NCBI GenBank assembly: GCA_030427245.1
Contig: JAUHXA010000067.1
Coordinates: 1 to 37,019 of the forward strand
Source of the DNA: Bacteroidia bacterium
GTDB lineage: Bacteria; Bacteroidota; Bacteroidia; Chitinophagales; UBA2359
Reading direction: 5' to 3'
Length of the DNA stretch: 37,019 bases
Below the pieces are notes generated by a model. It was not told the DNA's origin. It did no database searches and saw only the letters and a list, made by a program, of their open reading frames with translations. Both the position numbers and the translations under genes were made by a program. Numbering within the stretch: the first letter of the stretch is position 1; each line of letters opens with the position of its first letter. Positions 4,086 to 31,136 of the stretch are shown in pieces.

Positions 4086-4158
4086 ATGTAAACTACAATC
4101 TCCCTCACTACAATTGCGTTATTCTCCAAACGCAATTCATTTACCAAACCAAATCATT

Positions 4159-4842
4159 ATGCAAAAGATACCTCGCTTTTTTGCAATAGGCTTTCTATTA
4201 CTCACCGCCTTCAATCTGTCCTTCACCCTACTTTCACCTCTTCCACAAAGTGCCAGTACCCAAATCGGTGTCGTCAGTGCCGACAAAATGAACATACTCT
4301 ACCTTGGAGTCGACAATCCCGTTTCGGTAGCCATTGCAGATGTTCCGATTGAAGAAACCAAAGTCAGTATTTCTGAAGGGACATTGACCGAAACCGATAG
4401 AAAAGGAACATTCCACGTTAAAGTAAATCGACCTGGCAAAGCAACAATTCGTGTAGAAGGCGTGACAAATCAAGGCAAAACAGTTTCTGCATCAATGGAT
4501 TTTCGGGTCAAACGAGTTGCCGACCCCGAAGCAAGATTAGGAGGGCGTTCAGGTGGCAGAATACCGATTGCCAAGTTCAAAGCCCAAAAAGGATTGACCA
4601 CAGAAATCCCTGATTTTGACTACGATTTCAGGTATCATATAATGAGTTTTGAAATCTCTACTTCCAAAACGGGAAACGACATCGCTTCTGCCATCAATCA
4701 AGGACCAATCTTCACTGAACAAGCTCTCCGAATCGTACAACAGGCAAATATTGGAGATATTATCCATTTCAATACCATTCGAGTAAGAGCTCCCGACGGA
4801 ACGACAAGAAAACTCCCTCCTCTTTCTTTCAAACTGTATTAA
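4159..4842 (+). CDS. Stand-alone GldM C-terminal-domain protein, copy 1
   Basis: This 227-residue exported protein starts MQKIPRFFAIGFLLL (signal peptide, about residues 1-34). It is followed by one region matching the C-terminal domains of GldM, the gliding/T9SS motor protein: SADKMNILYLGVDNPVSVAI, then FRVKRVADPEARLGG, then DFDYDFRYHIMSFEIS and DIIHFNTIRV. The N-terminal membrane helix and long periplasmic stalk of true GldM (over 500 residues) are absent, so this is not the motor subunit itself. It may bind T9SS periplasmic partners such as GldK/GldN-type proteins; that is inference. I chose ATG 4159 because residues upstream of it in the frame are not signal-like. It lies 10 bases from its paralogue and was probably made by tandem duplication. 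Confidence 0.8.
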   Translation: MQKIPRFFAIGFLLLTAFNLSFTLLSPLPQSASTQIGVVSADKMNILYLGVDNPVSVAIADVPIEETKVSISEGTLTETDRKGTFHVKVNRPGKATIRVEGVTNQGKTVSASMDFRVKRVADPEARLGGRSGGRIPIAKFKAQKGLTTEIPDFDYDFRYHIMSFEISTSKTGNDIASAINQGPIFTEQALRIVQQANIGDIIHFNTIRVRAPDGTTRKLPPLSFKLY

Positions 4843-4852
4843 AACCACTCCA

Positions 4853-5524
4853 ATGAAAAACACAATTCTAATTTTCACTTCAATATTTCTCCTACTCACC
4901 TCTTTTCACTTCAAAAAAGCTTCAAAGCAAGACATTGAAGTAAATGCTGTCATTAGTGCTGACAAAGTGAATGTTTTTTACATTGGGGTAGACAATCCGA
5001 TTTCGGTAGCGATTTCGGATGTTCCGATTGAAGAAACAAAGGTGAGTATTGACAAAGGAAGCATTACACCAAGAAATAAACAGGGTGAATACAATGTCCG
5101 TGTTTTTGAAACGGGAATAGTGACAGTTTTCTTGGAAGGAAAAGACAGACAAGGAAATAGGGTGGAAAGTTCGAGTGAGTTTCGAGTAAAAAGAGTGCCT
5201 GACCCTGTTGCTAAATTAGGTCGAAAATCAGGGCATCCTGTTGGTAACTACGACAACACGATAGGCAGAGGACTTTTAGCGGTATTACAAGATTTTGACT
5301 TTGATATTCGTTTTCAAGTAGTCTCCTATGAAGTACAATTTACTCGAAAAGGAATACAGGTAAAAACTTACTTCAATGAAGGCAGTCTGTTTTCGCCAGA
5401 GATTTTGAAAGTTTCCAATAATGCACTAGTTGGAGATATTTTTTACTTCGATAAAATATTAGTGATGGAATCCGATGGTTACACACATGAATTAACGCCT
5501 ATCTCCTTCCAAATCAAAGAATAA
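4853..5524 (+). CDS. Stand-alone GldM C-terminal-domain protein, copy 2
   Basis: This 223-residue protein has signal peptide MKNTILIFTSIFLLLTSFHF and the same GldM C-terminal signature as its upstream neighbour: SADKVNVFYIGVDNPISVAI, VPIEETKVSI, FRVKRVPDPVAKLGRKSG, QDFDFDIRFQVVSYEV and DIFYFDKILV. It is closer to canonical GldM wording (FYIGVDNPIS, VPDPVAKLG) than copy 1. Spacing of 10 bases to copy 1 indicates co-transcription. There is no N-terminal GldM part, so the role is unknown: perhaps a periplasmic decoy, adaptor or stabiliser of the T9SS ring. The paralogy between the two copies is obvious by eye; the function is inferred. Confidence 0.8.
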   Translation: MKNTILIFTSIFLLLTSFHFKKASKQDIEVNAVISADKVNVFYIGVDNPISVAISDVPIEETKVSIDKGSITPRNKQGEYNVRVFETGIVTVFLEGKDRQGNRVESSSEFRVKRVPDPVAKLGRKSGHPVGNYDNTIGRGLLAVLQDFDFDIRFQVVSYEVQFTRKGIQVKTYFNEGSLFSPEILKVSNNALVGDIFYFDKILVMESDGYTHELTPISFQIKE

Positions 5525-8981: not shown

Positions 8982-9626
8982 TTAGTTAATTGCCATCAAA
9001 TCTTTTCTGATAAAAAACGAACCCATTGCCAAATCTTCTGCTGCTTTCAATTTCCAGTAATAGCGCCCTGCCTTCAAATCTTTAATATCAACTTCAAACT
9101 CTTGGGTATGAGTAGGAATCGTTTGTTCAATTAGGATAGTTTGTCGATTGTCTTCAATGCTAAATTGAAAATTTTGGTCAATGCGTTTTTTCAATTCAAA
9201 TTGTAAAAGGCCCTCTTTACAATCCAAACCATTTTTAGATTCAATTACTTCAATAGAATCACTTCGGCTGATACTCGCCAATATGGTTTCGTATTGGGGA
9301 ATAGGTAAGAAAGCCGCTGCTAATTGGTCTAAAAGCTCATTTCCTTTTTGCAATACCTTGTCTGTCAAATTCTTCAATGAGTTTGCTGAATTGTTTTTTG
9401 CAGTCCTTTCCGTTTGGAGTTGTTGTTCCAGATTTTGAAGGTTGGACAAGAACAATTCGTCACCTAAGCGATTCATGCTGTTCATAAACTTCTTGTGAAA
9501 GTTTACCTCTTGGGCAAAGTTTTCATCCTCTCGAAGCAATTGACCATATAGTTGTTGTTCTTTTGCAGTTAAAATTCCATCAATTTGGCGTTCTATCAAC
9601 TCTCTTTTTTGTTCATCACATAGCAT
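8982..9626 (-). CDS. Cysteine-free anti-sigma-like protein, module A
   Basis: This 214-residue soluble protein has no signal peptide or membrane helix. The N-terminus (KRELIERQIDGILTAKEQQL, then LLREDENFAQEVNFHKKF) follows the helical pattern of Bacteroidota anti-sigma N-termini (LIExYLxGxLsxEE...DPexxxEv), but without the zinc-binding His/Cys. The C-terminal ~110 residues (FLPIPQYETILASISRS ... GRYYWKLKAAEDLAMGSFFI) are a beta-rich domain shared with the paralogue at 29887-30507. The gene lies 33 bases after the ECF sigma gene and is probably co-transcribed with it, as expected for a sigma/anti-sigma pair. The anti-sigma role is inferred from position and N-terminus. It could also be an adaptor or CHAT substrate. 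Confidence 0.6.
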   Translation of the reverse strand: MLCDEQKRELIERQIDGILTAKEQQLYGQLLREDENFAQEVNFHKKFMNSMNRLGDELFLSNLQNLEQQLQTERTAKNNSANSLKNLTDKVLQKGNELLDQLAAAFLPIPQYETILASISRSDSIEVIESKNGLDCKEGLLQFELKKRIDQNFQFSIEDNRQTILIEQTIPTHTQEFEVDIKDLKAGRYYWKLKAAEDLAMGSFFIRKDLMAIN

Positions 9627-9659
9627 AATTTTTGTATTTATATTGGGTTAAGATTTTTA

Positions 9660-10238
9660 CTAACCAAACTTTTTCTCTACCAACTTTCTCAGACTCTTGA
9701 TACAGCGCCCCTTTTGAATACTGACTATATTGGCATTTTTATAGCCCATTTTTTGAGCAATAGTCGCTATTTTTTCCTGTTCATAATAAAAAAGGTACAA
9801 AATCGTGTAGCAGGGGTCGCTCATGTGCTTCAATGCTTTCAGTATAAAGGCTTCTTGTTGGTCTTTTGTCTTATCCCTAAAACTGGGAGTCACCACACTT
9901 TCTCCAATGTCGGGAACATCAGCCATGAAGTTTATCTTCACTTTTTTCTTACGCATCTGAGTGATGTATATTTTTTTACCGATGCTGAACAAATACCATT
10001 TCATAGAAGTGGTAAAATGCGTCAATTTTTCCGCTTTGATGTTTTTATACAAAGCCAATATACTTTCCTGAAAAACATCCAAAGCTTTCTCTTCGTCACA
10101 GTTGGTATTCCTTTTCAGCCACTCTACAAAGTCATCTCGATACGTTCTATAAATCATCTCAATAGCTTCTGTACTGCCCAATTTTATTTGAGCCAACCAC
10201 TCGTTTCTTTTCTGTTCGAGTTCAGATATTGCAGTCAT
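9660..10238 (-). CDS. ECF-type RNA polymerase sigma factor, module A
   Basis: This 192-residue protein shows region 2 (YRTYRDDFVEWLKRNTNCDE then KALDVFQESILALYKNI) and a C-terminal region 4 helix-turn-helix (EKIATIAQKMGYKNANIVSI, QKGRCIKSLRKLV). Size and two-domain layout fit ECF sigma factors. DVFQESI is the usual region 2 motif in Bacteroidota members. It sits between the TPR-CHAT gene (78 bases upstream) and the anti-sigma-like gene (33 bases downstream), all on the minus strand. A paralogue with the same partner lies at 30570-31136. Its target promoters are unknown. Confidence 0.85.
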   Translation of the reverse strand: MTAISELEQKRNEWLAQIKLGSTEAIEMIYRTYRDDFVEWLKRNTNCDEEKALDVFQESILALYKNIKAEKLTHFTTSMKWYLFSIGKKIYITQMRKKKVKINFMADVPDIGESVVTPSFRDKTKDQQEAFILKALKHMSDPCYTILYLFYYEQEKIATIAQKMGYKNANIVSIQKGRCIKSLRKLVEKKFG

Positions 10239-10316
10239 AAAAAATGCTCCGTTAATAATTAAGTCGTAAAATAGGGTAAAACATTAGCAGTTTTTCGAGG
10301 TTATTTTCATTTATTT

Positions 10317-13316
10317 TTATCCTTCGCCAATCAACACAAAGCCACACCAACTTTTCACCGTTGTATCTGCTTGCTTCAACAAGCGCAGTTTTGCCGTTCG
10401 CAATGCCAAAGCATAGTTTTGTTCTTCCTCCAAAATAGCTTCAAACAGATACTGCGTCAATTGACTGCTCGGTTTGTCGTATACTTTGAACAAAGTCGAA
10501 ATGATATTGGATGCACCCGAATACAAAAAACCTCGATGAAGTGCCATCATGCCTTCTCCTCTAACCAAACGCCCTACGCCACTATCGCAACTACTCAAAA
10601 CCACCAAATCGACAGATTTCAAATTCAGTTGATAAGTTTCTTCCATAGACAAAATACAGTCTTTGTTGGAAGCAGGAAGTAAGAAGCGAGAAGTAGGAGT
10701 TGAATCATCATGCGCTACCTCTTGCTTCTTACTCCCTGCATCTTGCTTCTCATCAAAAAACACCAACCCCGACAAAACCGTCTTTTCGTCGTTTACCAAG
10801 CCATGTGCTGCCACCAACAAGTAGCGGTAATGACTCGATGTCTGTTCAAAGCACTTTTTCGTTGCCGCTTCATGCAAGTAAGCTTTGGCGGTCAATCCTT
10901 TTTCTTCGAATAGCCGAGCAATGTTTTGCACTTCTATCTCCGAATAAGGTAGAGAAACCAATGAGTCGCCTTCTCTCATGACTTCGACATTTGCCTCGCT
11001 TTGATGGGTGATGTCATTGGAAAGTAGAGCATCGCCTGCGGGAGAACCATAAACAGGAGCAAAACCTCCAAAACTTTCTATGCAGTCATCTTGCTTCAAA
11101 GCAGCCTCTTTTTGATGCAAGTAGTGGAACAAACTGGCAGAATAATGGTAAGATACGGCTACATACTTTACCAAATACGCCAAGTCTGGATTAGAATGAA
11201 AAGCATTTTTGGGCTGATTTTTTCCTTGTGTTTTTGAAGGAATTGAGGATTTTTTTTGCCGAATGGAATAAGTGTTCGAGCTTCTTATCAAGGCTTCAAA
11301 AGGCAAATAATACAAAATGTTGTGGGGAATAATCAATAGGTGTTTCAGACTTGGCTCAAAATCCACCAAATCAATGAAGTAGTCTTCCACCGATTGCAGT
11401 AAAATTTTGTAGAGTTGAGTACCCAATATCACTTGTTTTTCAAAATCGTGGTGCTTGATGGATTGAAGGAAAGATTTTACCTTTTCGTCAAAATCTGCGG
11501 GCAAATCTTCTCTTACTATCTCAAAATCAGTTGCCGTCACTACAAAGATGGTTATTTCTTTTTCTCCCACAAAATAGTTCAACAGCACTTGGTTGTCGTT
11601 CAAAACAGATTGAAGCGCTGTCACCGTCACCGTTTGTGTATGGTACTTCAATTGAAAATATTCTGGATAGCGTTTTTTTAGTTCTTCCTTCAATTGAAGA
11701 TATGCCCGATGTGCTTCAAAAAAACTTTCCTGCCATTCCTCTAATTGCCGTTTTTCCGACTCGTCAAGTGTAGATTTGTCTTGCTTCAAATTTAGCTTTT
11801 GAATGTTCTTATCAAGCTGGGTAAGATGGGTTTGAAGTTCTTTTTCTTTTTCCAATAGCGTTGAAGAAATATTTGCGCTTGCCTTTGCCCCATTTTCTTG
11901 AATAGCATGCATCAGCACCCCTGCTTTCACGCTTTCGCAAAAATAGAACGCCCACTCATTGCCCTTTTTTCCCTTGATTTCCAGCAAATTTTCTTGAGCC
12001 TTCAAAGCCGCCTCCAATCCTTTCTCAAACAACTGCATATCCTGCACCGCCTGCTCTACTGAAAACTTGCTTTCGTCAAAATCATAACTCGTCCAGGCAT
12101 TGTTGTAGGTTTGACAAGCCAACAAATAGGTTTCAATGGCAAAGACCAAATCATGGCTTGCTCGTTCTGTTTCCAAAAAAGAGGAAAAAAACGCCTGCCC
12201 TTTTCCCTTCAAGGCTGTAATAGCATGATAAAGATTTGTAGAACGGACAGCAGGAGGCTGCAAGCTCAAATCGTGTTGAATGTCGCAGTTGGGATACAGG
12301 CTATTTAAGGCATTTTGATAAGACTGCTTTGCTGCGTCAAATGTACCTTTCTGCAAATACACCCTGCCCAAATTGTTGTACATCTGCCCGACCACAGGAT
12401 GTTTGTTTCCATAAAAAGAGAGGTACAACTCCAATGCTTGACTTAGATAAGAATGTGCTTCTTTCAACATTTTTCGCTCCAAATACACGTAGCCAATGTT
12501 TTGATAAGCAGACGCAACTACCACAGGTTCTTCTTTTGGATTTTGTGACTCCAATGCCAATTGAAAGTACTGTATGGCTTGGTCAAAATCGGCATCTGCT
12601 CTGGAGTGCATAGATTTCATGATGTAAATCACTCCAATGCGGATATAACTAATGGCTATGATTCGATGACTCGACGGATAGTGCTTCAAGACAAATTGAA
12701 GCGTTTTCTTTTGGTATTCAATAGCTTTTTGATAAGCTCCTTCTTCACCTGAGTAATAACGAGCGAGATGGGCATACGCCAAAAATCGGTAAAGGCTTTT
12801 GGGATGGTTTTCCGCAAGCGGCAATGCCAAAGACTTCTGCAAAAAAACCAAGGCTTGCTGCGTATCGTTTTGCTCCAAATAAAAATTACCCAATTGGGTA
12901 TATACCTCAGCCAACAGGTACAAGTTTGGTTGTGTAGTCGTCTGCAATAGCAAATCTAAGGCTTGGTGATAGGCATGAATGATGGCATCTGTATCTCCCT
13001 TAAAAGCCAATATCTTGGCACGACTAACGTATATATAGGCTCTGTAATCGCTGCTTTCCGCTAAGTCTTTGTAGAAGTCTTCTAGTTTTTGTAGCCATTC
13101 AATAGCGGCTTTTGCATCGCCTTGTGAGATGCAAAATTCCACTAAAAAACTTATGGCTTTTCCATACGAAGCCCATGCTTTGCTTTCTTCAAATTTTGCA
13201 GCCGCCTGCTCTGCCAACTGCAAAGAAATAGTTATATCCTTGTTCAGATAACTTTTCTCTGCCTCTGATAAATCCGCCTCAGCTTTTTTTAGACCTATAA
13301 TTTGTTCCTTATTCAT
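10317..13316 (-). CDS. TPR-CHAT caspase-like protein, module A
   Basis: This 999-residue cytoplasmic protein starts at ATG 13316 (an in-frame TTG at 13337 is less likely). Residues ~1-350 are tetratricopeptide repeats (for example TQLGNFYLEQNDTQQALVFL and NIGYVYLERKMLKEAHSYLS), followed by a helical linker. The C-terminal CHAT domain is of the caspase/separase-like clan CD type. The catalytic His is H838 in LLVAAHGLVND and the nucleophile C910 in VVLSSCDSGVG, followed by GEGMMALHRGFLYSGA. Both are intact, so protease activity is plausible. Between His and Cys a lysine/serine-rich insert (residues ~859-881) is encoded by a 25-bp inverted repeat. The gene lies upstream of an ECF sigma and an anti-sigma-like gene on the same strand. 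TPRs probably sense a partner; the substrate is unknown. Confidence 0.85.
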   Translation of the reverse strand: MNKEQIIGLKKAEADLSEAEKSYLNKDITISLQLAEQAAAKFEESKAWASYGKAISFLVEFCISQGDAKAAIEWLQKLEDFYKDLAESSDYRAYIYVSRAKILAFKGDTDAIIHAYHQALDLLLQTTTQPNLYLLAEVYTQLGNFYLEQNDTQQALVFLQKSLALPLAENHPKSLYRFLAYAHLARYYSGEEGAYQKAIEYQKKTLQFVLKHYPSSHRIIAISYIRIGVIYIMKSMHSRADADFDQAIQYFQLALESQNPKEEPVVVASAYQNIGYVYLERKMLKEAHSYLSQALELYLSFYGNKHPVVGQMYNNLGRVYLQKGTFDAAKQSYQNALNSLYPNCDIQHDLSLQPPAVRSTNLYHAITALKGKGQAFFSSFLETERASHDLVFAIETYLLACQTYNNAWTSYDFDESKFSVEQAVQDMQLFEKGLEAALKAQENLLEIKGKKGNEWAFYFCESVKAGVLMHAIQENGAKASANISSTLLEKEKELQTHLTQLDKNIQKLNLKQDKSTLDESEKRQLEEWQESFFEAHRAYLQLKEELKKRYPEYFQLKYHTQTVTVTALQSVLNDNQVLLNYFVGEKEITIFVVTATDFEIVREDLPADFDEKVKSFLQSIKHHDFEKQVILGTQLYKILLQSVEDYFIDLVDFEPSLKHLLIIPHNILYYLPFEALIRSSNTYSIRQKKSSIPSKTQGKNQPKNAFHSNPDLAYLVKYVAVSYHYSASLFHYLHQKEAALKQDDCIESFGGFAPVYGSPAGDALLSNDITHQSEANVEVMREGDSLVSLPYSEIEVQNIARLFEEKGLTAKAYLHEAATKKCFEQTSSHYRYLLVAAHGLVNDEKTVLSGLVFFDEKQDAGSKKQEVAHDDSTPTSRFLLPASNKDCILSMEETYQLNLKSVDLVVLSSCDSGVGRLVRGEGMMALHRGFLYSGASNIISTLFKVYDKPSSQLTQYLFEAILEEEQNYALALRTAKLRLLKQADTTVKSWCGFVLIGEG
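10672..10739. repeat. Inverted repeat inserted in-frame in the CHAT coding sequence
   Basis: Arms at 10672-10696 and 10715-10739 are imperfect 25-base inverted complements, rich in AAG/GAA (core AGTAAGAAGC) with an 18-base spacer. It lies between the codons for the catalytic His and Cys and encodes a polar insert (GSKKQEVAHDD...). Related AAG-rich sequences occur outside genes at 15577-15603 and 30544-30567, suggesting a dispersed repeat family. Confidence 0.7.
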
Positions 13317-19694: not shown

Positions 19695-22600
19695 ATGCAA
19701 ACCATCCCCCAACTCATTCAAGAACTCGAAGAACAATTGTCTCATGCCAAAGGAATAGCTAAAGGAGCTATATTGCTTGACTTGATGAGTCTATATGGTT
19801 CGAATAGACAACTTCAAAAGCTAGAGGAAGGAACGGAAGAACTCCTTAAATTAGCAGAAGAACACCAAGACATAGAATTGAAAATGGAAGTCATTCTGTT
19901 ATTTGTCAAAATCCATTATGCCAAAAATGAATTTGATAAAACTTATACTTTTTTTAATCAAATAAAATCTCTGAATGAAAAAGAAAACAATCGGAAAATA
20001 TGGCTGCAATACTACTTATTGAAGGCTGATATTGCACAAAAACAAGAACAATTTGAAGTTGCCCACGCACATCTTCAAGAAGCTCTTGCCTGTATTTCTC
20101 CTAAGGATATCTTGATGCAAGTCAAAATAAATCAGTTGTTGGGAATACAACAGACAATGAACAATAATTTAGAACAAGCATTTAGTTATTTTTTTAAAGG
20201 CTTAGAATGGGCGGAAAATGCAGAAAACAAAAGTTTTAAGCATTATACACAAACTATCGCGCTGCTTCTCAATATCACATCTCTTTACTCTCGAAAGTTA
20301 GAGGGTTTTGAAAACAGCGATAGTCTCTCTTATTACATGAATAAAGCACTCAAATTAGCTCTTGATATTCAATACAAACCTGCCATAATCGACTTACAGC
20401 TACAGTTTGCAGGTATAGAAACTCAATCAAAAAACTATGACAAAGCACTTGATTATTTGCATTCTGCTTTGAAGGTTGCCAAAACTTTTCAAAATCAATA
20501 CATTGTAACCTACTGTAATGACAGTATTGCTATAATGTACCAGAGGAAAGGGGAGTTTGACAAAGCCATTGATATGTTTCAATCTAACTTGGATTCAGCA
20601 TTGAAAATGAATAGCAAAGCCTTGATTATTTCTTCTTTCACCAATTTATCCAGATGTTTTTATAAACAGAAAAACCATTCATCTGCTCTGAAACACGCAG
20701 AAGAAGCCTTATCTGTTGCAGAAGAATTAAACATTGAAGTCAGTTGTTTGCCTCTCTACAAACTCATGGCTTCTCTTCACAAAGAATTGGGCAATATAGA
20801 CGAAGCATTTCATTTTATTCAAAAGCATATGGATTTGAAAGATGAAATGTACACCGCCGAAAAGGAGAAAAGCATCGTAGAAATGCAAACTCGCTACGAA
20901 ACCGAAAAAAAGGAGCAAGAAGCCGAACAACTGAGAGTATTGGAGCAGGTTAAAAGTCGTTTCTTTTCCCAAATCACCCACGAATTTCGTACCCCTTTGA
21001 CGCTCATTTTAGGGCCTGTTCAACAGCTATTGCAGCACCCAAAAATCCAATCAGACTCCGAACTTCAAAACCGTCTCACCTTAGTAGAACGCAATGGTGA
21101 ACGCCTTTCCAATTTGGTCAATCAACTACTTGACCTATCCAAATTGGAGTCGGGTAAAATGACTATTCAAAAAAAGCATGGCGATGTAATAGCTTTCGCA
21201 AAAGCAATTGTTACCAACTTTCAAACACTTACACAGCAGCAAAACATTCACCTGCATTTTGAGACTTCCATCCTTCAATTGACTGCAAATTTTGATGTCG
21301 ACAAGCTCGAAAAAATCCTCTACAATCTTCTTTCCAATGCTTTCAAATTCACGCCTTCTAATGGTGAAATTACCCTTGAACTGCAAACCCAACAAAGCAT
21401 AAAAGAAAAACATACCAACCTGAAAATCACACTAAAAGACACAGGCAAAGGGATTGCAGCTGCCCAACTCCCCCACATTTTCGACCGCTTTTACCAAGCC
21501 GACAACAGTAATATTCGAGAAGTAGAAGGTTCGGGAGTGGGTTTGTCTTTGGTCAAAGAGTTGATAGAATTGCAGGGCGGCAGCATTGAAGTAAAATCTG
21601 AAATAAATGTGGGAACAACTTTTATCTGCAATTTGCCTCTCGAACTTTCGGAAGTCCACCAAATCATTTCTATTGCAGAAAAAACACCTGCTCCAAGTTC
21701 TTCTGTCAAAACCTTACATACAAAATTGAAGGATGCTTCTTCAAATAAGCAGAAAACAAAAGCAACTACAAAAAACAAGGGTAAAAACATTGAAAACGAA
21801 AATCCCGTTCCCATCATAAGAGGCATTCTAAAATACTGCGCCTCCGACCATTTCACCACTTTAGATGCGGGAAACTGGGCGAGCTACCAATGGTCAAATG
21901 GCGAAACAAGCCGAATCATTGAAGCCAACGCAGGCACTTACACCGTCACGGTCACCAACTCCAATGATTGCACAGGAACAGATGAAGTCACCGTCACCGA
22001 AAACGCCAATCCAGTTCCTGTCATTACAGGCGACTTCGCTTATTGCAGAGGACGACAAGCGACCTTAGATGCAGGAGTTTGGGAGACTTATGCTTGGTCA
22101 AATGGTGAAACAGTTCAGAGTTTTTCGACGACTTCAATAGGCGTTTACACTGTCACCATCACCAATCAAGAAGGCTGCACAGGCACTGCAATGGCAGAAG
22201 TGAGTGCAACACCTTGTTTGGCAGAAGCAGGAATATTGACAACCAACCAAAACACGATTTGTGCAGGCGAAGCATTGGAGGTCAGCAGTACAGGAAACCA
22301 AACAGACACCAATTACCGACACTATTTCTTTGTCTATTCACAAGACAATTTAGGAAACACATTATACCAAAAGAGCAGCATAGCTAATTATGGAACAGGA
22401 ACGGCAACAGCGAGTTTTGGAGGTTTATCAGCAGGTGATTATTTGGTTTGTTCCTACAACGAATGTAAAGATTGCCTGCCCAATCCTTCACCAGTTATTT
22501 TCACCACACCAATGAATGACATCTACCAAACAGGTACGATTCAAGATGGCTGTTTCGATATCGAATGTGTAGAAGTGAGCGTACCCGAAGCCTTTGAACC

Positions 22601-23474
22601 CCATGCCTCAGGCACAGGAATTGTAGCCGCAAACAATGCCGCAGGACAAACCATATTTGTTGCCGAAGTATGTGGAGGAACGATGCCTTACAGCATTGAA
22701 TTTGAATCCGCAGGAGGATTTGTGACTGTAAATGACTATCCTTCTCCGGTGGCAGGTTGTCTCAAATACCAAGTTTTGTATGTGCCAGAGGCAGAATGGA
22801 CATTGACCGTCACCGATGCAAACGGCTGCCACAACGAAACGGTGGTATTCACCAACGAAGGCTTGATAGAGGAATCACCCCTTCAAATCGTGAGCCATGA
22901 AATAGGTGCTGAGTCCTGTTCTGGTTATGCGGATGGTTCTATTAGCATAACAGTAGAAGGGGGAAGTGACGACTGCAATGAATACACTTACGAATGGTCA
23001 GGACCCAATAGTTTCGTTTCAACTGTTTGGGGAGCAGTGACAGGAAATGAGGTGACGGGTTTGGCATCGGGCAAATATGATGTCACCGTAACGGACTGTG
23101 AAGGAACAACCACAACCTTAGAGGATATAAATGTGACCCGCAAAACTCGTGGAAGAGGCAGAGGTCGAGGAGGCTGCAAAACGATAGATGGCGAAAACCC
23201 AATAGAAAATAGCGTGTTGGGAGTATATCCGAATCCATTTGGAGCGCAAACTTCCATTGAGTTTAGCCTATCCGAATCCTCCAAAGTGTGGCTGTCGGTC
23301 TATTCGGTCGATGGACGCAAAGTTGTGGAGTTATTGAAGGGGGAAGAGATAGAAGGCGAACTGTTGCAGCGCATGGATTTTGACGCAGAGCAGCTACAAG
23401 AGGGTTTGTATATTTTGGAAATGCGAACCGAATCTGGTGAGCGTTTTTATCAGAAATTGATGGTGAATAAATAA
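19695..23474 (+). CDS. TPR histidine kinase fused to adhesin repeats and a T9SS sorting domain
   Basis: This 1259-residue frame has three parts. Residues ~1-400 are TPRs (for example YDKALDYLHSALKVAKTF). Residues ~415-655 are a complete kinase: phospho-acceptor H429 in SQITHEFRTPL, N-box N544/N548 in LYNLLSNAFKF, G1 box D582-T-G-K-G, F-box HIFDRFYQ, G2 box G612-S-G-V-G. After a Lys/Ser/Thr linker, residues ~703-840 hold two SprB-like repeats (LDAGNWASYQWSNGE..., GTYTVTVTN). Further Ig-like regions and a type A T9SS sorting domain follow at ~1175-1259 (VYPNPFGAQTSIEF ... LYILEMRTESGERFYQKLMV). There is no signal peptide or membrane helix, so the C-terminal half cannot use T9SS as it stands. 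Relatives often carry receiver and AraC-type domains where the adhesin part begins, which suggests a replacement fusion. Confidence 0.85.
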   Translation: MQTIPQLIQELEEQLSHAKGIAKGAILLDLMSLYGSNRQLQKLEEGTEELLKLAEEHQDIELKMEVILLFVKIHYAKNEFDKTYTFFNQIKSLNEKENNRKIWLQYYLLKADIAQKQEQFEVAHAHLQEALACISPKDILMQVKINQLLGIQQTMNNNLEQAFSYFFKGLEWAENAENKSFKHYTQTIALLLNITSLYSRKLEGFENSDSLSYYMNKALKLALDIQYKPAIIDLQLQFAGIETQSKNYDKALDYLHSALKVAKTFQNQYIVTYCNDSIAIMYQRKGEFDKAIDMFQSNLDSALKMNSKALIISSFTNLSRCFYKQKNHSSALKHAEEALSVAEELNIEVSCLPLYKLMASLHKELGNIDEAFHFIQKHMDLKDEMYTAEKEKSIVEMQTRYETEKKEQEAEQLRVLEQVKSRFFSQITHEFRTPLTLILGPVQQLLQHPKIQSDSELQNRLTLVERNGERLSNLVNQLLDLSKLESGKMTIQKKHGDVIAFAKAIVTNFQTLTQQQNIHLHFETSILQLTANFDVDKLEKILYNLLSNAFKFTPSNGEITLELQTQQSIKEKHTNLKITLKDTGKGIAAAQLPHIFDRFYQADNSNIREVEGSGVGLSLVKELIELQGGSIEVKSEINVGTTFICNLPLELSEVHQIISIAEKTPAPSSSVKTLHTKLKDASSNKQKTKATTKNKGKNIENENPVPIIRGILKYCASDHFTTLDAGNWASYQWSNGETSRIIEANAGTYTVTVTNSNDCTGTDEVTVTENANPVPVITGDFAYCRGRQATLDAGVWETYAWSNGETVQSFSTTSIGVYTVTITNQEGCTGTAMAEVSATPCLAEAGILTTNQNTICAGEALEVSSTGNQTDTNYRHYFFVYSQDNLGNTLYQKSSIANYGTGTATASFGGLSAGDYLVCSYNECKDCLPNPSPVIFTTPMNDIYQTGTIQDGCFDIECVEVSVPEAFEPHASGTGIVAANNAAGQTIFVAEVCGGTMPYSIEFESAGGFVTVNDYPSPVAGCLKYQVLYVPEAEWTLTVTDANGCHNETVVFTNEGLIEESPLQIVSHEIGAESCSGYADGSISITVEGGSDDCNEYTYEWSGPNSFVSTVWGAVTGNEVTGLASGKYDVTVTDCEGTTTTLEDINVTRKTRGRGRGRGGCKTIDGENPIENSVLGVYPNPFGAQTSIEFSLSESSKVWLSVYSVDGRKVVELLKGEEIEGELLQRMDFDAEQLQEGLYILEMRTESGERFYQKLMVNK

Positions 23475-23713: not shown

Positions 23714-26700
23714 ATGTCTATAGATACTCAAATAATAGCTCCACCATTAAGTCTCGACCAAGCCAAAACTATCCTTTCTGAAGGTAAAACTGCTGCTGCT
23801 GAAAAAGACTATGATAAGGCGATAGAATTGTTTGGTAAGGTGATTGAAGTTTTTGAAGTGCAGGAAGAATGGGAGGCTTTTATGGAGGCATCTTATGAGT
23901 TGCTTAGAGCTTACAAAAATGATTTTTTTTTTACAGAATTCTACGAAGCATTTGAAAAAGTGATTGACATTCATGAAGAAAAATGCCCTCGATTATTTAC
24001 TTGGAAAGCTCGACTGTATAGAGAAAAGGGGGAGATTCTTTATTTATCGGGTAGGTCAGAAGATGCACTTCAATGTTTTCATATAGGGCAGCAAATATTG
24101 GAGGAAAATCAAATAGAGAATGAGTTTCTGATTTACATTTTATTCTATCAGGTAGGATGTTATAGTGGATTGGGCGATTTTGAAAAAGCTACTCAACTTT
24201 GGAGTAGAGCCGCTGAATTATTGAAGGAAGAGAAAGAAGCCTCAGATGATTTAAGGGCGGAGTTTCATTATAAGAAAGGAGGGATGGAACAGAATCTGGG
24301 CAATCACGATTTAGCACATCAGCATTATCAAAAAGCCTATGAGTTATATTCGTCAGAAAATGAACTTAAAAAAGCTCTCTGCCAAATTCATATTGGATTC
24401 AAATATCACCAGAGAGCAGGAGGAGGTCGTCAAGTTTTGGACTACTTCAAAAGCATCGCCAAACCGCACAAAGATTCTACGGATAAGAGAAGTAAATTCC
24501 AGCTCGCAAATGTGTATATATACATTGGATTTATCTACGCAAATACTGGAGAATTTCAACAAGCCCTCAATTACTATGAAAGTGTGTTGGCATTGTTAGA
24601 GGGAATAAGTGAGCAGTTGTGTTCTGCTAGAATGAATATCTATTTTATTTTGGGGCAGTTATTCGCCAAAAAACAAGGTTCAGACAAGGCGTTTGACTAT
24701 TACAATCGGGCATTGACAATAGGAGAACAAATATTTACTATTGAAAATCAACAACACGCAAAGATTCATAGTGGGCTGGAGCATCTGTATCAAATCCAAG
24801 GTGATTTTGATAAAGCACTCTATCACGCAAATAAGACCTTGCTGATTTTTCAACGCATACTGGGCGTAAATCATACGCATACAGCCGTTGCTCAATGGAA
24901 AGTTGGTTGGAACTTGACGCTGAAAGGTGACTTATTGGAGGGCTTACAATACCTCTACCGTGCATTGGCTATTCTCAAAAACGAATCAGGAGACACACAT
25001 CAAGATATCAATATAGTATATTCCTATATTGGGAGGAACTTTTATTGGCAAGGTAAATTTCAAGAAGCACTGGAGTACTTTCAATTATCATTCATAGCCA
25101 GCATATCGGATTACAATACAACAGAAATCTATCATTTGCCTACCATCGAACAACTTCCACTCATAAATTATTTAGAGATAATCTATACCCTACGTCAAAA
25201 AGCAAAAACGCTCCATAGTTATTTTCATGTGCTAAAAACCTCCAATCCCATCAAGGCAACAAAAACCATACAGGCAGCATTTGACACTTGTCGCCTTTTT
25301 ATAGACTATCAATACAAACTCCAAAGGGAAATAAAAGCAGAAATCTCTAAACTAATCATCTTAGATGAATTACCAGAGACATGTGAAGAAGGCATTGATA
25401 TTTGTTTGACACTCGCAAACCATACAGAAAACGATTCCATTTTATTAGAAGCATTCAATTTGCAGGAGCAATCGAAATCACTTGTATTGCGCTATTCTAT
25501 GCAGGACAATGAGGCGAAATTGCAGACGACTATTGACCCCAAATTGTTAGAGCAGGAGCAAGTACTCAGAAACCAAATAGAAAGCATCCAGCAAAACATA
25601 CAGAAAAAAGAAGCCAAGACAACGCTCAATAAAAAAGAAGACCAGAGACTAAAGGCATCTAAGCAAGAATATTTCAATGCCTTCCAAGCACACCAGACAC
25701 TCATCGAACAATTCGAGCGAGATTACCCCAAATACCACCAACTCAAATACAACCTTCAAACCGTTTCGGTCACAGACCTCCAAAAGAGTCTGGATGAAGA
25801 TACAGTCGTAGTCAGTTACTTTATTGGCGGAGAAAAAGGCTATATTTTCGCTGTCACCTACGACGAATACGAAGTCATTCCCTTTGACCTACCCAAAGAT
25901 TTCGACCAACAAATCCAAGACTATTTAGACAGCATACAAGCCCAAAACATCACCGATTTTATTCCCCAATCCCACACCTTGTATTTCTTGTTAATCGAAC
26001 CCATCAGCTATTTGGTATTTGACCCCTTTGCAGGAACTCCCAAAAACGTGGTTATTCTGCCAAGTGCATCGCTCAATTACCTCCCTTTTGAAACCCTCAT
26101 CCGAGAAATTCCCTACACTGCCCAGCCCGCTTTTCACCAACTCGATTATCTCCTCCAACACTGCCATATTCAATACCACTATTCCGCAACCTTGTATCAT
26201 CAGTCCTTGCAGAAAAACGCACAAGAGGCATCTATTTTGCCTTCAATAAAAAATCCAGCTTCCGTTGATTTTCTCGGATTTGCTCCCGTTTATACCAGCG
26301 ACAAAGCAGCCACACAAGAAGCCTTGCGAGGATTAGCAGAAGATTACAGCCGTTGGGCAACACGCTCTGATGCCCTACAAGACGGCACACTTGCGCCACT
26401 TCCTTTTTCCGAAAAAGAAGTAGAAAACATTGAAGAATTGTTTACCCAAAAAGGATTGAAAGGACAAAGTTGTTTGTACGATACAGCCACCAAAGAGCAC
26501 TTCAAAACCATGGCCTCCAATGCCAAATACCTACACATTGCAGCGCATGGACTGACCAATGATGAATACCCCAAATTGTCTGGCATCGTATTTCACCCCA
26601 ACGAAGAAGCTACCGAAATTCACGACAGCGTTTTGTCGATGGGCGAAATGTATCAACTCCAATTGCAGGCAGATTTGGTCGTTTTGAGCAGTTGCGAAAG

Positions 26701-26959
26701 CGGCATCGGCAAACTGGCGAAAGGAGAGGGGATGATGGCCATCAATCGGGGATTCCTCTATGCAGGCGCAAAAAACGTGATTTACACCCTTTTCAAAGTT
26801 CTCGACAAACCAAGCAGCGAACTGTGTGAGGCTTTATTTGCCGAGATATTGGAGGGGAAAACCTATACGGAGGCATTGCGCTTGGCAAAATTGCGCTTGA
26901 TTCAACGGGCGGATGTGGATCCTAAATCTTGGAGTGGATTTGTCTTATTGGGAGCTTAA
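23714..26959 (+). CDS. TPR-CHAT caspase-like protein, module B
   Basis: This 1081-residue cytoplasmic protein begins MSIDTQIIAPPLSLDQAK. TPR units fill residues ~10-470 (YDKAIELFGKVIEVFEVQEE, FQQALNYYESVLALLEG, FDKALYHANKTLLIFQRILG). A helical linker with coiled coil (~600-700) follows, then the CHAT domain with H945 in LHIAAHGLTND and C994 in VVLSSCESGIG, followed by KGEGMMAINRGFLYAGAKNV. Both catalytic residues are intact. It is paralogous over its whole length to the module A protein. Downstream lie a crystallin-like gene and a truncated copy of this gene, then convergent anti-sigma-like and sigma genes. Known TPR-CHAT proteins such as Csx29 are proteases gated by partner binding; the gate and substrate here are unknown. 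Confidence 0.87.
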   Translation: MSIDTQIIAPPLSLDQAKTILSEGKTAAAEKDYDKAIELFGKVIEVFEVQEEWEAFMEASYELLRAYKNDFFFTEFYEAFEKVIDIHEEKCPRLFTWKARLYREKGEILYLSGRSEDALQCFHIGQQILEENQIENEFLIYILFYQVGCYSGLGDFEKATQLWSRAAELLKEEKEASDDLRAEFHYKKGGMEQNLGNHDLAHQHYQKAYELYSSENELKKALCQIHIGFKYHQRAGGGRQVLDYFKSIAKPHKDSTDKRSKFQLANVYIYIGFIYANTGEFQQALNYYESVLALLEGISEQLCSARMNIYFILGQLFAKKQGSDKAFDYYNRALTIGEQIFTIENQQHAKIHSGLEHLYQIQGDFDKALYHANKTLLIFQRILGVNHTHTAVAQWKVGWNLTLKGDLLEGLQYLYRALAILKNESGDTHQDINIVYSYIGRNFYWQGKFQEALEYFQLSFIASISDYNTTEIYHLPTIEQLPLINYLEIIYTLRQKAKTLHSYFHVLKTSNPIKATKTIQAAFDTCRLFIDYQYKLQREIKAEISKLIILDELPETCEEGIDICLTLANHTENDSILLEAFNLQEQSKSLVLRYSMQDNEAKLQTTIDPKLLEQEQVLRNQIESIQQNIQKKEAKTTLNKKEDQRLKASKQEYFNAFQAHQTLIEQFERDYPKYHQLKYNLQTVSVTDLQKSLDEDTVVVSYFIGGEKGYIFAVTYDEYEVIPFDLPKDFDQQIQDYLDSIQAQNITDFIPQSHTLYFLLIEPISYLVFDPFAGTPKNVVILPSASLNYLPFETLIREIPYTAQPAFHQLDYLLQHCHIQYHYSATLYHQSLQKNAQEASILPSIKNPASVDFLGFAPVYTSDKAATQEALRGLAEDYSRWATRSDALQDGTLAPLPFSEKEVENIEELFTQKGLKGQSCLYDTATKEHFKTMASNAKYLHIAAHGLTNDEYPKLSGIVFHPNEEATEIHDSVLSMGEMYQLQLQADLVVLSSCESGIGKLAKGEGMMAINRGFLYAGAKNVIYTLFKVLDKPSSELCEALFAEILEGKTYTEALRLAKLRLIQRADVDPKSWSGFVLLGA

Positions 26960-29331: not shown

Positions 29332-29377
29332 CAGCAGCAGTCAACTTATCTATAAGGTATTTTGGCTGCTGTTTTTT
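29332..29377 (+). terminator. Intrinsic terminator after the crystallin-like gene
   Basis: CAGCAGC (29332-29338) pairs with GCTGCTG (29365-29371), with a small inner stem CTTA/TAAG in the loop, followed by TTTTTT (29372-29377). Confidence 0.65.
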
Positions 29378-29463
29378 ATGGAATCAATCAAAGAATATTT
29401 AATAATGCTCTATCTTTACCCTCCCACCATTTCAAGGCTTCAAGTTTAAATGATACATTTCAG

Positions 29464-29886
29464 ATGTCTAAAGATAGAATGACCAATGATGAATATCCCA
29501 AATTATCTGGCATCGTATTTCACCCCAACGAAGAAGCTACCGAAATTCACGACAGCGTTTTGTCGATGGGCGAAATGTATCAACTCCAATTGCAGGCAGA
29601 TTTGGTCGTTTTGAGCAGTTGCGAAAGCGGCATCGGCAAACTGGCGAAAGGAGAGGGGATGATGGCCATCAATCGGGGATTCCTCTATGCAGGCGCAAAG
29701 AATGTGATTTACACCCTTTTCAAAGTTCTCGACAAACCAAGCAGCGAACTATGTGAGGCTTTATTTGCCGAGATATTGGAGGGCAAAACCTATACGGAGG
29801 CATTGCGCTTGGCAAAATTGCGCTTGATTCAACGAACAGATGTAGATCCTAAATCTTGGAGTGGGTTTGTATTGTTGGGGGCATGA
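29464..29886 (+). pseudogene. Truncated CHAT copy (Cys kept, His lost)
   Basis: A 140-residue open frame starts at ATG 29464 (MSKDRMTNDEYPKLSG) and is a deletion derivative of the 23714 gene. Its upstream ~65 bases resemble the 5' region of that gene, with TATCTTTACC and TTCAGATGTCTA shared in order. After four codons it jumps to the part just behind the catalytic His of the full gene. From there to the end it is about 96% identical in DNA, with a 194-base run (29506-29699) without any difference. C53 in SSCESGIG corresponds to C994, but no His remains, so it cannot be a standard CHAT protease. It may be a pseudogene or a small dominant-negative/decoy protein; codons stay intact and it ends with its own TGA. 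Confidence 0.8.
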
Positions 29887-30569: not shown

Positions 30570-31136
30570 TTAAATATCAGCTCGCTTAAATTCTTTCAGC
30601 ATCTGCTTTTGCAGGGCCTTGATACATCTTTTTTTCTGTGTCCTTACAACCTCTGGGCTTTTATAATTCAAGTTTGTTTGAATCGATTCAATAGAATATT
30701 GGCGGTAAAAGAAGAGGTATAAAATGCGTTGACAAGGATGCTGCATTTGCTTCAACAAATCAGCAATCATCTTTTTTCTATCTATTGACTGCAAGTTACC
30801 TTCCGCCCCCATTTCTGAAGATTCCATAAACTCCAAAGGAGCGTCAGATGTAGTTTGTTTACGTTTACGCAGTCGCAACAAAAAAAGATTTTTACCAATC
30901 CCAAAAAGATAGGTTTTCAACTGACTCTTTATGTTTTGCAGCTTTCCCGCCTTTGCATTCTTATACAAAACAATAATGCTATCCTGAAAAATATCTATCG
31001 CCTCCTCTTCACTGCAATTGTGTTTTTGAAGTATCCAATTCACAAAAGAAGGTCTAAATTCCTCATACAACACATTGACCGCCTCCCTTTTTCCAGCTTT
31101 GAAGGCCGATAGCCAATTGTTGAAGTCCTCTATCAT
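30570..31136 (-). CDS. ECF-type RNA polymerase sigma factor, module B
   Basis: This 188-residue protein has region 2 (VLYEEFRPSFVNWILQKHNC, EEEAIDIFQDSIIVLYKNAK) and a region 4 helix-turn-helix (SIESIQTNLNYKSPEVVRTQ, KKRCIKALQKQM). It is collinear with the module A sigma (shared FQ[DE]SI...LYKN, KxYLFxIGKxxFLxxxRKRK-type linker, and KxRCIKxL at the end). It is transcribed with the anti-sigma-like gene. Upstream, the 264-base divergent region leads into the giant adhesin gene, and the shared 90-base element lies inside that region. Autoregulation and control of the adhesin and crystallin-like genes are plausible but not shown. Confidence 0.85.
   Translation of the reverse strand: MIEDFNNWLSAFKAGKREAVNVLYEEFRPSFVNWILQKHNCSEEEAIDIFQDSIIVLYKNAKAGKLQNIKSQLKTYLFGIGKNLFLLRLRKRKQTTSDAPLEFMESSEMGAEGNLQSIDRKKMIADLLKQMQHPCQRILYLFFYRQYSIESIQTNLNYKSPEVVRTQKKRCIKALQKQMLKEFKRADI

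Follow-up and report, generated by a model that had tools for sequence, protein, structure and literature searches.

In systems of the RseA/DegS type, the cutting of a membrane anti-sigma factor frees an ECF sigma factor. Few CHAT proteins appear to have a known substrate. In type III-E CASP, the TPR-CHAT protein Csx29 cleaves Csx30, a protein of 565 residues whose N-terminal domain binds CASP-sigma, and in the available part of that report Csx29 required no particular residue of its substrate in order to cut (PMC10028731). CalpL-CalpT-CalpS, as far as the accessible portion of its description goes, is a type III CRISPR SAVED-Lon system whose protease cleaves an anti-sigma factor (PMC11417357). 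ECF54 sigma factors have a CHAT protein, subtilase or carboxypeptidase in their genetic context, and the sections of the source at hand propose control by proteolysis and describe the group as working without an anti-sigma factor (PMC8999054).

Here, a stretch of 37,019 nucleotides from a Bacteroidia bacterium (assembly GCA_030427245.1, contig JAUHXA010000067.1), called the window throughout, was analysed. An original prediction had placed a TPR-CHAT protein, an ECF sigma factor and an anti-sigma-like protein head to tail and read them as a stand-alone switch in which CHAT cleaves the sigma inhibitor. The trio itself (module A) was confirmed, with all three genes in that order on the minus strand, and its interpretation as a proteolytic sigma switch was partly supported. 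The genes of module A and of a second set in the window (module B) are as follows:

10317..13316, minus strand: TPR-CHAT protein, candidate protease (H838, C910), 999 aa; PF12770 and TPR families, dyad columns, translation
9660..10238, minus strand: ECF sigma factor, 192 aa; TIGR02937 over cut-off, fold matches to SigW, AlgU and RpoE chains
8982..9626, minus strand: candidate anti-sigma factor, soluble, 214 aa; anti-sigma domain at the N-terminus, then a long helix, a linker containing R121 and a DUF3244-like Ig domain
23714..26959, plus strand: module B TPR-CHAT protein, 1081 aa; PF12770 E 4e-48
29362..29886, plus strand: partial CHAT copy of module B; 409 bp match the 3' end of that module's CHAT gene at 96.1% identity
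29887..30504, minus strand: module B inhibitor, 205 aa from ATG; same family as the 214-aa protein
30570..31136, minus strand: module B ECF sigma factor, 188 aa

The CHAT protein of module A matched PF12770 (E 1.2e-46) along with TPR families in a Pfam scan. Its start was taken as the ATG giving 999 aa; the mechanical open reading frame begins at a TTG seven codons earlier, and H838 and C910 are H845 and C917 in that 1006-aa reading. Family and structure scans used 10317-13313, i.e. the protein without its first Met. The intact His/Cys pair that had been proposed was borne out by the CHAT alignment, where both residues fall on the dyad columns; of 110 aligned CHAT proteins, 107 have H and C in these columns, and the remaining three (L116, L129 and L134) have gaps or X. 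The dyad columns also aligned with those of the CHAT chain 8d9h_E, in a weak match (E 0.093). Three loci (L170, L172 and L194) sharing contigs with L107, L109 and L110 were dropped from the dyad, topology, promoter-motif, two-block-word and linker-Arg counts, and from the deduplicated sigma-selected counts.

The window sigma factor reached 51.4 bits for TIGR02937, whose cut-off is 42.9 bits, and was below cut-off for the Pfam models of sigma regions 2 and 4. The identity of the 214-aa protein was drawn from profiles and fold, with no family convincingly matched in Pfam, NCBIfam or PADLOC. The N-terminal part of the inhibitor profile matches and aligns with membrane proteins directly adjoining ECF sigma factors, and on this sequence evidence the N-terminus of the 214-aa protein is assigned to a zinc-free anti-sigma domain family, which I take to be the 'class I' anti-sigma by name; no zinc-binding anti-sigma motif was apparent in its sequence. 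The C-terminus is a DUF3244-like Ig domain, DUF3244 being the best Pfam signal, below cut-off. By hydropathy the protein lacks any strong transmembrane stretch (mean over 19 residues at most 1.11), as expected for the soluble protein that had been proposed, but the description of this protein as cysteine-free was wrong, as it carries C3 and C136. A search of PDB sequences with the inhibitor profile (E up to 1) returned no Csx30 or anti-sigma chain, the presence of Csx30 in that set being unconfirmed.

Structure prediction with AlphaFold2 ordered the long helix of the 214-aa protein only when sigma was present in the chain. Inhibitor residues 47-96 had block pLDDT values of 92-96 in a read-through sigma-linker-inhibitor chain, whereas for the inhibitor alone the blocks closest to this range (residues 41-100) had 61-88, and pTM was 0.69 for the fused chain vs 0.54; the fused chain tethers the two proteins, and its alignment input was made of paired rows. 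Of the 24 in-frame loci, 22 were used (L181 and L191 were left out). A joint alignment (A5) in which the inhibitor rows were unpaired was discarded because these rows were misplaced onto sigma. The linker of the fused model had pLDDT <50 at chain residues 312-336, where the alignment was shallow. Among 61 soluble inhibitors, 44 had Arg at one linker column, in a stretch with few other basic residues. Six of the seven listed chains from anti-sigma complexes matched the sigma part of the fused model with TMt 0.43-0.49 (BldN-RsbN 0.49), 5uxx with only 0.37, and RNA-polymerase-bound ECF chains with 0.32-0.39; by E-value, the best sigma match was an RNA-polymerase chain, 6dv9. The 214-aa protein is, from its sequence and the models, a strong candidate for the anti-sigma factor of the adjoining ECF sigma, and the label 'anti-sigma-like' stood up on both the domain family found beside ECF sigma factors and the model confidence, which went up with sigma.

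CHAT genes were linked to sigma-inhibitor pairs more often than by chance. In the window's own genome, a CHAT gene lay within 5 kb of 10 of 19 inhibitor-paired sigma genes vs 4 of 54 other ECF sigma genes (Fisher 8.4e-5). Among relatives, 16 of 40 inhibitor-type proteins (one of which, L144, is a membrane-type protein) were within 5 kb of a CHAT vs 1.06 expected, and sigma relatives picked by sigma sequence alone had a CHAT gene within 2 kb in 45 of 76 cases. At sigma-selected loci with 5 kb of downstream sequence, 12 of 52 were without a CHAT within 5 kb (L179 was unscored in this survey). Co-occurrence, for which a survey of genomes had been suggested, thus recurred, and because linkage was conserved, the lack of it in relatives that was to count against the original prediction was not what was found. 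It is very improbable that these neighbours are functionally unrelated, with numerous CHAT genes falling beside sigma pairs by chance or in gene-rich islands: the 45 CHAT places in this one genome and the many sigma pairs without a nearby CHAT (here 9 of 19 had none within 5 kb) would be in keeping with it, but not the excess over other ECF sigma factors in the same genome and over expectation in relatives, nor the recurrence of the trio in loci from five classes. Most of the 45 CHAT places had no inhibitor-paired sigma within 5 kb, and with 45 such places and 19 sigma factors with an adjoining inhibitor in the genome, action in trans is possible. A set of 20 loci with only the N-terminal domain was tried as a CHAT-free control and found unfit, because half of them (10) have a CHAT gene within the stretch examined.

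The linked trios came in two matched layouts, with a membrane anti-sigma beside a secreted CHAT, or a soluble anti-sigma beside a cytosolic CHAT. The membrane-type trio occurs, for example, in Roseivirga and Chryseolinea. By a fixed rule, 64 of 66 trios were concordant and 47 of 66 had a membrane-spanning anti-sigma, the window protein being soluble instead; a parallel scoring had hand-set labels for L083, L137, L248 and L222, the incomplete L116 and L129 were left out of trio scoring, and three inhibitors of uncertain topology were left out of the Fisher test on topology. In this genome, 4 of 33 CHAT proteins were scored as secreted, and these include both that are linked to a membrane inhibitor (L074 and L091); another of the four, L088, seems to have a start extended in error. 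The 64/66 concordance rests on few independent events: the sigma tree gave three supported independent pairs (median p 0.25), and the CHAT tree two supported pairs, for which the mean outcome was one in agreement and one without difference. In both layouts CHAT would be placed where the C-terminal side of the inhibitor could be cut, and the topology match fits CHAT acting on the inhibitor. Linkage and topology are equally compatible with CHAT binding the inhibitor without cutting, in which case the TPR part would pull the anti-sigma off and any proteolysis would be aimed elsewhere. TPRs are typical binding repeats, and all five membrane-type inhibitors scanned have them too. I nevertheless regard binding alone as unlikely, since it has no need of a dyad that is intact in 107 of 110 CHAT proteins, and cleavage by a TPR-CHAT protein is demonstrated in the Csx29 system, in the part of the report available (PMC10028731).

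The genes of module A form an operon-like row that starts with CHAT, followed by sigma after 78 bp and the 214-aa protein after a further 33 bp. Among linked pairs, this same-direction order was a minority found only in the window, L115, L122 and L159; most commonly, CHAT and inhibitor faced each other (37/46 membrane-type and 8/19 soluble-type rows, duplicates removed). Sharing a row with sigma would also suit CHAT as an output, with sigma controlling the CHAT gene, the CHAT product hitting some other target (a cell-death effector, for example) and regulation of the inhibitor being of another kind, and so would the upstream sequence common to three CHAT genes in one locus (L087). However, CHAT as the first gene of the row would be made before sigma. 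The motif GTTAC-N15..18-CATTA had 39 matches in the loci examined, lying before 14 sigma genes, 3 other genes and 0 CHAT genes, and the 7-mer GGGTTAC was found upstream of 22/163 sigma, 8/887 other and 0/110 CHAT genes. A motif that stands before sigma genes and never before CHAT genes fits CHAT as input, not output, in the membrane form; the output reading, which also leaves the topology match unexplained, is therefore rather improbable. GGTTAC-N16-CATTAA had 52 matches in 16 genomes vs 15 for the reversed control. Two-block words common to sigma and neighbour genes (63/1033 pairs vs 36/1033 at spacing 16) were over-represented at all spacings between 14 and 18, so that spacing 16 was not singled out. 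A shared promoter was sought for module A and none was found. For module B, a GTTCAC-type sequence is a candidate promoter before the genes next to its sigma gene. The apparent targets in sister loci are secreted proteins.

The absence of a CRISPR component, as had been proposed, was upheld for the window: no Cas family was found among 21 window proteins with Pfam, and seven window proteins gave only chance-level Cas models with NCBIfam and PADLOC, namely Cas3a2 (E 0.035) and Cas5 (E 0.042) for the 214-aa protein. In the same genome, a RAMP family occurred at three places on contigs C163 and C70, with open frames of 313, 313 and 469 aa, and none of the 45 CHAT places was on these contigs. 'Stand-alone' holds in that no Cas effector was found alongside; what did not stand is the isolation it implies, as module A is one local copy of a family. 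In one paralogue, CHAT is joined to a STAND ATPase that carries WD40 repeats, a layout familiar from defence proteins. This fusion, together with the mechanistic likeness to the partly available Csx29-Csx30-CASP-sigma account (PMC10028731), could point to a defence module triggered by phage infection and not by an ordinary stress signal. Such a role is highly unlikely, given that the module proteins had no convincing PADLOC match (only weak TPR models), that the 214-aa protein had zero matches in plasmid and phage records, and that the apparent targets in sister loci are secreted proteins.

I consider it fairly probable that module A is a cytosolic proteolytic sigma switch in which CHAT cuts the inhibitor. 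In the resting state, the ECF sigma factor would be kept inactive by the anti-sigma domain at the N-terminus of the 214-aa protein. Once the TPR part of CHAT detects a signal or partner, the caspase-like CHAT domain would become active and cut the 214-aa protein between its anti-sigma and Ig domains. The Arg121 loop would be the likeliest site, a prediction that may be wrong because, in the available part of the Csx29 report, no substrate residue was essential (PMC10028731). Damage to the inhibitor would release sigma, which would transcribe genes that, judging by sister loci, may include its own operon and neighbours, several of them for secreted proteins.

Similar gene sets recur in Bacteroidota with no CRISPR effector alongside. 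Whether they form a general non-CRISPR kit, with two matched layouts (CHAT and inhibitor both cytosolic, or CHAT and the C-terminal part of the inhibitor periplasmic), exchangeable sensors (TPR or, in one paralogue, STAND-WD40) and copies that each switch mainly neighbouring secreted-protein genes, is a more tentative proposal that I would place somewhat short of probable; type III-E would then be a recruited member of an older logic. For a large subset of CHAT proteins, the anti-sigma-like neighbour offers a specific candidate as substrate. If the switch is real, caspase-like proteolysis would be a mainstream bacterial transcription switch beyond one CRISPR subtype, and there would be a plausible background outside CRISPR for the type III-E case.

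In the openly licensed literature, outside of which most subscription papers lie, no report of a Bacteroidota CHAT-sigma-anti-sigma trio was found. The geometry of RseA/DegS would suit the membrane-type relatives, in which an anti-sigma domain, a transmembrane stretch and TPRs stand beside a secreted CHAT, whereas the window inhibitor is soluble and its candidate protease caspase-like. By context and by the available part of its description, ECF54 resembles module A in having a CHAT-domain protein nearby and differs from it in that module A has an anti-sigma candidate directly downstream of sigma (PMC8999054). CalpL-CalpT-CalpS, in the portion of its report at hand, likewise combines a protease with an anti-sigma and an ECF sigma, but relies on a Lon protease with a SAVED sensor in place of TPR-CHAT (PMC11417357); the window CHAT had no SAVED or Lon match, with only CHAT and TPR families above the Pfam cut-off. 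The closest known system to module A is Csx29-Csx30-CASP-sigma. Unlike in type III-E CASP, the surroundings of module A showed neither Cas7-11 nor any other CRISPR effector, and in place of the 565 residues of Csx30 its inhibitor has 214 aa, with a predicted anti-sigma domain and a DUF3244-like Ig domain. As far as the accessible part of the report describes it, both encode together a TPR-CHAT protein with a His/Cys dyad, an ECF sigma factor and an inhibitor, and the sigma-binding N-terminal domain of Csx30 has its counterpart in the predicted anti-sigma domain of module A (PMC10028731).

The three genes of module A, the trio under study, lie head to tail as the original prediction had it, on the minus strand and separated by intergenic gaps of 78 and 33 bp:

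10317-13316, minus strand: CHAT gene, with a CHAT domain (E 1.2e-46) preceded by TPRs
9660-10238, minus strand: sigma gene, over the ECF superfamily cut-off
8982-9626, minus strand: gene of the 214-aa anti-sigma candidate, no family over cut-off

A Pfam scan gave a weak DUF3244 signal, below cut-off, at the C-terminus of the 214-aa protein. This protein had been described as cysteine-free, which turned out to be wrong, as two cysteines are present; no zinc-binding motif is apparent in its sequence.

The trio of CHAT protein, anti-sigma candidate (hereafter the inhibitor) and sigma is real and conserved. The 7.58-Mb source genome holds 45 CHAT places, which looks like a large expansion, along with 73 ECF sigma matches. 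The module A sigma itself has 16 matches there, and the 214-aa protein has 20 with E no higher than 1, of which 15 fall below 1e-3. ECF sigmas with an inhibitor-matching place within 1.2 kb were counted as inhibitor-paired (19/73). A CHAT lay within 5 kb of 10 of these 19 vs 4 of the 54 other ECF sigmas (Fisher 8.4e-5), and within 10 kb the counts were 12/19 vs 7/54; at most 5.8% of the genome lies within 5 kb of a CHAT. Nine of the 19 had no CHAT within 5 kb, and two of the four other CHAT-near sigmas (loci L074 and L091) each have a membrane inhibitor.

Linkage in relatives, which had been named as a test of the cassette, was also found. Forty genomes were searched, the source genome included, and matched the inhibitor profile in 30 cases (partial matches counted) and CHAT in 25. 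Of the 40 top inhibitor matches in other genomes, 16 had a CHAT within 5 kb, where CHAT counts and genome sizes predict 1.06; the 16 may be an underestimate because several contigs are short. I also scanned named species with the sigma alignment, taking the best 80 loci of 212 relatives regardless of CHAT: a CHAT was present within 2 kb in 45 of the 76 loci scored, and in 38 of the 52 having at least 5 kb of downstream sequence, while 12 of these 52 had none within 5 kb. CHAT-bearing loci span Cytophagia, Saprospiria, Chitinophagia, Flavobacteriia and Bacteroidia.

Residues ~1-75 of the 214-aa protein align with membrane anti-sigmas. Modelled alone (mean pLDDT 85.3, pTM 0.54), the protein is helical as far as residue 118, after which comes a beta sandwich that matches the DUF3244 Ig-like structures 4g5a, 3sd2 and 3d33. 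Sigma and inhibitor happen to share one frame, so that a read-through chain could be folded as a single chain, using an alignment of 22 relatives read likewise plus 15 sigma-only rows. Here, inhibitor residues 47-96 reached per-block pLDDT values of 92-96 vs 61-88 in the nearest blocks of the inhibitor alone, and the joint chain had a pTM of 0.69. Structure matches of this model included the sigma chains of the AlgU-MucA, SigW-RsiW, RpoE-RseA and BldN-RsbN complexes, although by E-value an RNA polymerase-bound sigma ranked first. The joint-chain model supports binding of sigma by the inhibitor, short of proof, as the tether and the paired rows bias towards an interface.

Two layouts of the trio were apparent. 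In most loci of named species the inhibitor shares the N-terminal domain of the window protein, followed by a transmembrane stretch near residue 85, with TPRs in all five membrane-type inhibitors scanned for families, and the CHAT beside it has a signal-like N-terminus and/or a C-terminal membrane stretch. Window-type trios combine a soluble inhibitor with a CHAT having neither feature. When topology was assigned by a fixed rule on hydropathy, inhibitor and CHAT agreed in 64 of 66 trios (46 membrane and secreted, 18 soluble and cytosolic; L222 and L238 discordant), and a similar table gave 63/65 concordant (Fisher 7e-14), its rows being related to one another. The CHAT tree groups all soluble-linked rows but L150 in a single supported clade and shows just three changes in all, while on the sigma tree the inhibitor and CHAT traits change six times each, and only three supported independent pairs were found, nearly always concordant (median p 0.25). 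Of 33 CHATs of the source genome, four were scored as secreted, one of them probably through a start error; L074 and L091, the two membrane-linked CHATs, both belong to these four. The topology match across trios is thus suggestive, short of proof. A separate arrangement was seen at 8745-11990 of L072 (contig C129), where the gene divergent from a sigma-inhibitor pair encodes a CHAT domain, whose His75 and Cys111 make a plausible dyad, joined to an nSTAND1 ATPase and a WD40 region; this is a possible sensor swap.

The candidate catalytic columns (H838 and C910 in module A) are His and Cys in 107 of 110 aligned CHATs. Searched against the PDB, the CHAT profile matched a 991-aa CHAT protein, 8rot (E 1e-7), on which a literature search found no publication, and weakly the CHAT chain 8d9h_E (E 0.093), the Craspase protein; the dyad aligns onto His and Cys in both. 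In soluble inhibitors, column 121 of the loop between the helices and the Ig domain is Arg in 44/61 and basic in 75%, vs at most 25% basic in the flanking columns 114-120 and 122-124, making this Arg a candidate cut site for CHAT.

Module B, the second such set in the window, spans 23.7-31.1 kb and comprises a CHAT gene, a 623-aa gene, a copy of the CHAT 3' end (409 bp, 96.1% identity; 26547-26955 vs 29474-29882), and an inhibitor and sigma facing that copy, which adjoins the inhibitor. Because relatives most commonly have CHAT and inhibitor facing each other, module B looks like a facing trio into which a gene was inserted. Recurrent recombination of CHAT ends is hinted at by the 3'-end copy together with a partial CHAT ORF in L081 and, in L106, a sigma-like N-terminus that runs into a CHAT end. 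Elsewhere in the window, a single open frame at 19695-23474 combines TPR, histidine kinase and ATPase domains with repeat-like regions and a secretion sorting tail, and is either an odd chimera or a fused gene pair; two tandem genes at 4114-5524 have C-terminal GldM domains (type IX secretion/gliding) without the remainder of GldM; and at 32485-37018 tandem repeats of ~174 and ~207 bp lie within an FG-GAP/PKD gene that runs off the contig.

Sequence common to sigma and neighbour genes at sister loci suggests local regulons. In fetched membrane-type loci, GTTAC-N15..18-CATTA precedes 14 sigma genes, no CHAT genes and three others; this last group includes the divergent neighbours of L226 and L190, the latter encoding a subtilase that has a sorting tail. 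The closest paralogue of the window sigma, on contig C12 (L067), is preceded by GTTAAC-N16-CAACTA, and four of its neighbours, including lectin-like, tectonin-like and IPTL-CTERM proteins, by GTTAAC or GCTAGC, N16 and CAATAA; a related pattern searched genome-wide at up to three mismatches returned three of the C12 places and one on C143. These five genes may form a local regulon. In module B, GTTCAC-N17-TAC was found at three places, a result weak by itself, as 6 of 100 shuffles reach three matches:

27315: promoter-like repeat before the 623-aa gene
31315: promoter-like repeat before the FG-GAP gene
31166, minus strand: promoter-like repeat before sigma B

A longer word common to the 623-aa and FG-GAP gene upstreams occurs nowhere else in the genome (up to three mismatches). 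The same kind of search found no promoter-like sequence common to the module A sigma and its neighbours.

No CRISPR component was found beside the cassette: the Pfam scan returned no Cas protein among the 21 window proteins scanned, and the three RAMP-family places of the genome are all on contigs without a CHAT place. The reading that best accounts for the trio is a switch outside CRISPR made up of CHAT, anti-sigma and sigma, with a putative proteolytic step. The closest working model is Csx29-Csx30-CASP-sigma (PMC10028731), and it is in the effector that module A departs from this type III-E CASP system.
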